A stretch of 40,883 nt of DNA from Halonotius pteroides (lineage in GTDB: Archaea > Halobacteriota > Halobacteria > Halobacteriales > Haloferacaceae): NCBI RefSeq assembly GCF_003605635.1, contig NZ_QMDW01000022.1, forward strand, positions 1-40,883. Reading direction: 5' to 3'. Positions 2,629 to 3,069 of this stretch are shown here, piece by piece (position 1 is the stretch's first letter; each line of letters opens with the position of its first letter). Below the pieces are notes generated by a model. It ran no database searches, was not told the DNA's origin, and worked only from the letters and a program-made list of their open reading frames with translations. The translations under genes were made by a program, and so were the position numbers.

Positions 2629-2635
2629 TTTAAGA
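2629..2635 (+). promoter_or_regulatory. TATA-like box of the candidate RNA
   Basis: The run TTTAAGA lies about 26-32 bases before position 2661. That is the expected distance from an archaeal TATA box to the transcription start, so the predicted transcript would open with the 13-bp hairpin. This is an inference from spacing only. Confidence 0.45.
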
Positions 2636-2660
2636 GCCTGTCTGTCGTACCACTATATGT

Positions 2661-2786
2661 CCATCTGGTGTCTCGGTTCTCAGTGCTGAACATGGTGAAC
2701 CTTCTCTCAGACACCAGATGGGTGATTCAACTGACGCCGTTCTGAGAACACTGCTGCTGTGATTGTGCGCCTATGGCTCTTGTTTT
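2661..2786 (+). ncRNA. Candidate structured small RNA with 13-bp hairpin and possible pseudoknot
   Basis: The sequence shows a perfect 13-bp stem: CCATCTGGTGTCT at 2661-2673 pairs with AGACACCAGATGG at 2709-2721, across a 35-base loop. Inside the loop GTTC (2676-2679) can pair with GAAC (2688-2691) or GGTTC with GAACC (2697-2701). In addition GTTCTCAG at 2676-2683 is fully complementary to CTGAGAAC at 2742-2749, outside the hairpin, which would make an 8-bp pseudoknot or a switch. A TATA-like box lies about 26-32 bases upstream, and a T-rich run at 2782-2787 could end transcription. It does not match tRNA, SRP RNA or RNase P RNA features I know. An H/ACA-type guide is possible, but I see no clear ACA box after the stem. 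The 3' end is a guess. Confidence 0.5.
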
Positions 2787-2952: not shown

Positions 2953-3069
2953 ATGATCGGTGAGTCAGCGAATCCGGCGGCGACACAGGAGGTTGTCGTT
3001 CTCGCGGGGATTGTGGGTGTCGTTGTTATCGTTGCTGTCATCGGATTTCTCTGGATGCTCTCCCGATAA
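2953..3069 (+). CDS. 38-residue single-pass membrane peptide
   Basis: An ATG at 2953 opens a 38-codon reading frame ending in TAA at 3067-3069. The peptide has a short polar N-terminus (MIGESANPAATQE), then about 22 uninterrupted hydrophobic residues rich in Val, Ile and Gly, ending WMLSR. That is a classic single transmembrane helix with a positive cytoplasmic end. A TATA-like TTTTATC run lies about 25-30 bases before the ATG, fitting a leaderless transcript. The family is not recognised. It is too short for most gene callers. It could be a regulatory or structural membrane micropeptide, but chance coding cannot be excluded without homologs. Confidence 0.5.
   Translation: MIGESANPAATQEVVVLAGIVGVVVIVAVIGFLWMLSR

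Follow-up and report, generated by a model that had tools for sequence, protein, structure and literature searches.

Hairpin RNA genes of Halonotius with loops complementary to archaellin starts: a candidate antisense family with putative decoys

Antisense RNAs and RNA decoys are known kinds of regulators. To our knowledge, archaeal small RNAs with convincing targets are few, and the post-transcriptional control of the archaellum has been little explored. Among haloarchaea, hvo_1211s of Haloferax volcanii is an antisense RNA affecting motility, described in the same study as the CsmR motif (PMC13286277). It differs from the RNAs reported here in being about 420 nt long, cis-antisense to cirA and encoded at a single locus, and that study describes neither a hairpin-loop family aimed at archaellin starts nor decoys. 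The intergenic RNAs sRNA132 (PMC6560208) and s479 (PMC8155600) of Haloferax likewise have proposed mRNA targets, but these concern phosphate and zinc transport, and the two abstracts report neither a multicopy family nor start-codon mimics. An archaeal small RNA with both cis- and trans-encoded mRNA targets is sRNA162 of Methanosarcina mazei (PMC3510493), although its targets and organism are different and the abstract describes no decoy family. In the CJnc190/CJnc180 pair of Campylobacter, translation is repressed in trans at the ribosome-binding site and an adjacent RNA serves as antagonist (PMC8687705). That system is bacterial and its antagonist is cis-antisense, whereas the Halonotius counterpart, here called a mimic, has a gene to itself, downstream on the same strand, with a promoter of the target's type. 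We found no description of the Halonotius hairpin RNAs in open-licence papers. What appears to be new is a multicopy, paralog-matched set of archaeal RNAs aimed at archaellin starts and accompanied by putative decoys that share the operator of the targets.

The stretch analyzed, called the window below, comprises 40,883 nt of Halonotius pteroides. In it, the initial annotation had proposed a previously unlisted structured RNA gene with a perfect 13-bp stem, a TATA-like box upstream and a possible pseudoknot. The features relevant here are the following.

2621 to 2634, + strand: promoter, consisting of a TATA box (TTTAAG, 2629 to 2634) and BRE-like bases before it; the spacing of the TTTAWN box is kept across copies.
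2661 to 2673, + strand: 5′ stem arm, identified by its pairing with 2709 to 2721, by covariation and by duplexes with mimics.
2674 to 2697, + strand: loop segment CGGTTCTCAGTGCTGAACATGGTG, antisense to archaellin starts (CACCATGTTCAGCAC...) according to alignment columns 14 to 35 and duplex predictions.
2698 to 2708, + strand: 3′ side of the loop (columns 36 to 48), hypervariable and with indels across copies.
2709 to 2721, + strand: 3′ stem arm, whose changes covary with those of 2661 to 2673 (GC↔AU at columns 3/59, UA↔CG at columns 11/51).
2739 to 2749, + strand: local palindrome GTTCTGAGAAC with the supposed pseudoknot partner; its sequence is not conserved and differs in two orthologs.
2850 to 2864, + strand: operator remnant of a lost mimic (CATCAGTTATCATA), from pairwise alignments and the operator scan.

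Read from the sequence, the two arms are complementary at 13 of 13 positions. The fold of the window hairpin is modestly stable (z = −1.3; in single-sequence folding, 19 of 200 shuffles equaled or exceeded its stability), and by our own estimate an 8-nt loop segment finds a complement within the next 65 nt by chance in about 2–3% of cases; for these reasons the single-sequence evidence is weak. Comparative evidence establishes the hairpin, its stem covarying across copies and species. A search of the window genome with 2661–2696 gave further copies, and we built two covariance models, one from four copies and the other from 15. The window hairpin (2661–2721) is one of these 15 copies, which are found in all five Halonotius genomes with two to four per genome. 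They occupy five loci, whose names, like those of the genes, rest on our reading of translations and sequences.

Locus A, directly after the V-ATPase subunit D gene (atpD): all five genomes.
Locus B, the window locus, near folD: three genomes.
Locus C: four genomes, with a tRNA gene nearby in at least two of them.
Locus D, on contig C41: the window genome only.
Locus E: uncultured A07HN63 only.

The four-copy model had no match in the family outside Halonotius (27 other genera), and the 15-copy model gave nothing convincing outside Halonotius among 392 genomes of the order; its one weak match, in another genus (G038), lies by sequence inside a coding region and was taken as chance. Scanned for the exact pattern, 84,980 species gave named matches only in Halonotius aquaticus, H. 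roseus, H. terrestris and A07HN63. A viral pattern match fell within a phage portal-like gene, in its coding sequence, and was likewise taken as chance, stricter viral scans being empty, and a plasmid search with one copy found none. The copy on G000:C41 is restricted to a single species, is of the GTC variant, lacks a mimic and sits on a small contig, which may be a mobile replicon.

Across the 15 copies (11 distinct), the stem was paired in 93% of cells, as against 34–43% when one arm was slid, and two stem pairs showed double changes. The 5′ side of the loop (columns 14–35; TCGGTTCTCAGTGYTGAACATGG) was nearly invariant. No open reading frame of at least 60 aa covers 2507–2858, in agreement with the earlier statement that no protein frame spans the region, and Rfam gave no match to the region at gathering level or at E ≤ 1. 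The TTTAAG box lies 27–32 nt ahead of the window stem, and a TTTAWN box was found at −31/−32 from the stem start in 13 of the 15 copies, most other upstream sequence having diverged. This kept spacing favors the proposal that the predicted transcript begins at the base of the stem and, with the covariation, bears out the prediction of a structured small-RNA gene. A promoter of its own at fixed distance and a locus apart from its putative targets, the archaellins being encoded elsewhere, are the features expected of a trans-acting antisense RNA.

The initial annotation lacked two features, the complementarity of the loop to archaellin starts and the accompanying mimic genes. After the copies themselves, the best matches to the hairpin in its own genome included four archaellin starts, all in antisense. 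Halonotius genomes have 5 to 14 matches to PF01917 (Pfam) each. A 23-nt start pattern, allowing up to two mismatches, matched 55 times in the five genomes and the reversed-pattern control not once; by coordinate comparison, 54 of these matches were archaellin starts, antisense RNA copies or mimics, the exception being in G059:C4. In other genera the pattern occurred at most once per genome. In terms of duplex energy, 33 of 45 archaellin starts paired with an RNA of their own genome more strongly than all 895 background ATG windows, which were drawn from the 40,883-nt window only; as archaellin starts are homologous to each other, the targets are not independent. As a control for shared protein ancestry, we took 24 archaellin starts of other genera; even with whichever of the 15 RNAs paired best, they reached only −12 to −27 kcal/mol, none above background, in comparison with mostly −29 to −42 kcal/mol in Halonotius. 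The conserved segment is thus complementary to several mRNA starts in trans above background. For about a quarter of the archaellins (the MSxxARG, MFESxTRG and some MFxTESRG types) pairing did not exceed the background, and a comparison of own-genome with cross-genome pairing as a test of coevolution revealed no general own-genome advantage. The antisense segment is partly paired within the predicted hairpin (mean unpaired 0.39–0.57), so pairing with a target would need some opening. Many archaellin 5′ UTRs have a hairpin-like sequence (e.g., GCGTCTGACC..GGGCAGGCG) directly before the start.

The RNA variants correspond to classes of archaellins. Codon 3 of the archaellins is AGC, AAC or GAC, and the RNA triplets facing it are GCT, GTT and GTC.

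Window-type RNA, GCU: faces AGC (MFST archaellins).
RNAs of the atpD and tRNA loci, GUU: face AAC (MFNT archaellins).
Single C41 RNA, GUC: faces GAC (MFDT archaellins).

In each archaellin class, the mean duplex energy was best with the matching RNA variant. Three genomes have a GCU RNA, and each of their 11 AGC archaellins paired best with it; GCU RNAs are missing from genomes with none or one AGC archaellin. The window copy, being of the GCT type, thus fits best the MFST-type archaellins.

The mimics, 19 in number, adjoin most RNA copies and occur also at separate loci: those of loci A, B and C lie approximately 250–370 nt downstream of the RNA copy on the same strand, and eight more are found elsewhere. 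Each has its own TATA box, followed by a 5′ hairpin (often CAGCCTGTG...CACAGGC) and, after it, (ATG)TTCARCACTGAGAAYCGAGRCACC. Their short open reading frames have only the first residues in common, and the locus-B mimics of two species lack the ATG yet keep the complementarity. Duplexes between mimics and RNAs reached −50 to −65 kcal/mol and extended into the 5′ arm of the RNA, GGTGTCT in the 3′ half of that arm being also complementary to CGAGRCACC of the mimics; archaellins had a median of −43 and a best value of −52 kcal/mol. Judged by sequence, the mimics are thus predicted transcription units that bear the target sequence and pair more strongly than the real targets, as would RNA decoys. 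In many mimics a further hairpin is predicted (e.g., GAATCGAGGC...GCCTTGATTC), with the RNA-pairing segment as its 5′ arm, and both sides vary between copies. The window locus has no mimic; in pairwise alignments with H. aquaticus, a deletion at 2864/2865 accounts for its loss. At 2953–3069, a 38-codon open reading frame (MIGESANPAATQEVVVLAGIVGVVVIVAVIGFLWMLSR), likely a small membrane protein, is conserved at the same locus in H. aquaticus and H. roseus.

Upstream of the TATA box, the mimics carry an operator, TATCA-N4-TGATA, which is the CsmR motif of Haloferax archaellum promoters (PMC13286277). With up to two mismatches, it was present in 19 of 19 mimic, 28 of 45 archaellin and 2 of 15 small-RNA promoters, and in 46 of 1,814 background windows (2.5%). 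MFST-type archaellins mostly lack a CsmR-like operator. A CsmR-like regulator would be expected to bind the operator, and a gene for a 110-aa winged-helix protein beside a KaiC gene, adjoining archaellins of the window genome, makes a candidate CsmR/CirA pair. The region, G000:C39:29000-44500, holds an archaellin cluster with the winged-helix gene, the KaiC-like gene and a transposase-like open reading frame inside the archaellin region.

We consider it probable that the window gene is a member of a Halonotius family whose RNAs act in trans, as antisense, to block archaellin translation, with the mimics as relieving decoys. The RNA would start at the foot of a 12- to 13-bp stem, and its loop of about 35 nt would present an antisense segment of about 22 nt, pairing with the last bases of the archaellin 5′ UTR, the AUG and codons 2–8. 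Covering of the start codon would block ribosome entry and repress archaellin synthesis, the paralogous RNAs being tuned to archaellin classes through the triplet facing codon 3. The mimics, with an archaellin-type operator and promoter, would yield short RNAs bearing the start sequence with longer complementarity; once archaellin transcription is on, these may titrate the small RNAs and create a threshold or a delayed on-switch. From these sequence patterns we infer transcription, repression rather than activation, and the decoy action. For the full three-part circuit we see an even chance; in it, paralog-specific antisense RNAs with independent promoters would silence archaellin mRNAs, and operator-sharing decoys would absorb these RNAs once the archaellum regulator acts, so that switching has a sharp threshold and one or another of up to about a dozen archaellins can be selected. 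Counting against the antisense reading, H. roseus, described as non-motile (PMC6719526), retains the whole system of RNAs and mimics.

The same pairing could have another outcome, with archaellin mRNAs being stabilized or activated, or the paralogs sorted in determining filament composition. The match between RNA variants and codon-3 classes, together with the escape of some paralogs, is what selection among archaellins would predict, and in Haloferax, protection of the target has been proposed for one antisense RNA (PMC13286277). However, the pairing spans the AUG and the first codons, the usual site of translational repression, and nothing in our analysis pointed to activation, which leaves this outcome unlikely. 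We give still less credence to the mimics being the main partners, the RNA pair controlling something else, such as the leader frame of a Tat-signal gene, and the archaellin match being left from an origin in a duplicated archaellin 5′ end. The longest complementarity is indeed with the mimics, and in three genomes a mimic forms a 12-codon upstream open reading frame ending in a stop that overlaps a Tat-signal gene's start; yet the class matching is with archaellins, and every genome shows archaellin pairing, the window genome, with its adjacent mimic lost, among them. The window-genome case of this arrangement is at G000:C11:13829-13851 (−), where the frame MFNTANRGSQRL has a stop overlapping the ATG of the Tat-signal gene MTSRRQLLRGVAG..., and H. 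terrestris has a similar one at G060:C19:127855.

Palindromic ends and several copies per genome could also suggest a mini inverted-repeat element, as the initial annotation had allowed, or an untranscribed relic of an inverted archaellin duplication. We regard this as very improbable because the loci of the copies are fixed and syntenic from species to species, the arms covary, the promoter is conserved with its TATA spacing, and the loop is conserved across the genus. Dispersal at nonsyntenic sites with target-site duplications, as of a mobile palindrome or MITE, was not seen, nor were flanking duplications on reading the copy sequences. As to the proposed pseudoknot, GTTCTCAG at 2676–2683 is complementary at all eight positions to CTGAGAAC at 2742–2749. 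The latter is half of the local palindrome, which is possibly part of the RNA 3′ end; orthologs carry CTAAGAGC and CCGAGAGT near the site, and paralogous copies have nothing comparable. The compensatory changes sought in both helices were thus present in the stem and absent from the second helix, and a conserved helix crossing the first, as in a pseudoknotted RNA or riboswitch, was not found. Despite the perfect complement in the window and a partner partly kept in two orthologs (7/8 with G–U pairs), a pseudoknotted regulatory RNA or switch is hardly credible, as the partner is absent from the other copies, the loop segment is accounted for by target pairing, and Rfam has no match.

Under the preferred reading of antisense RNAs with decoys, the sequence itself indicates the targets, backed by strong internal controls, and the putative decoys share the operator of the targets. 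As several Halonotius species are cultured, the model is directly testable. It suggests a route by which a multigene surface-protein family may give rise to small RNAs that diversify along with it, and it implies a so far unreported RNA circuit, one that may control archaeal motility.
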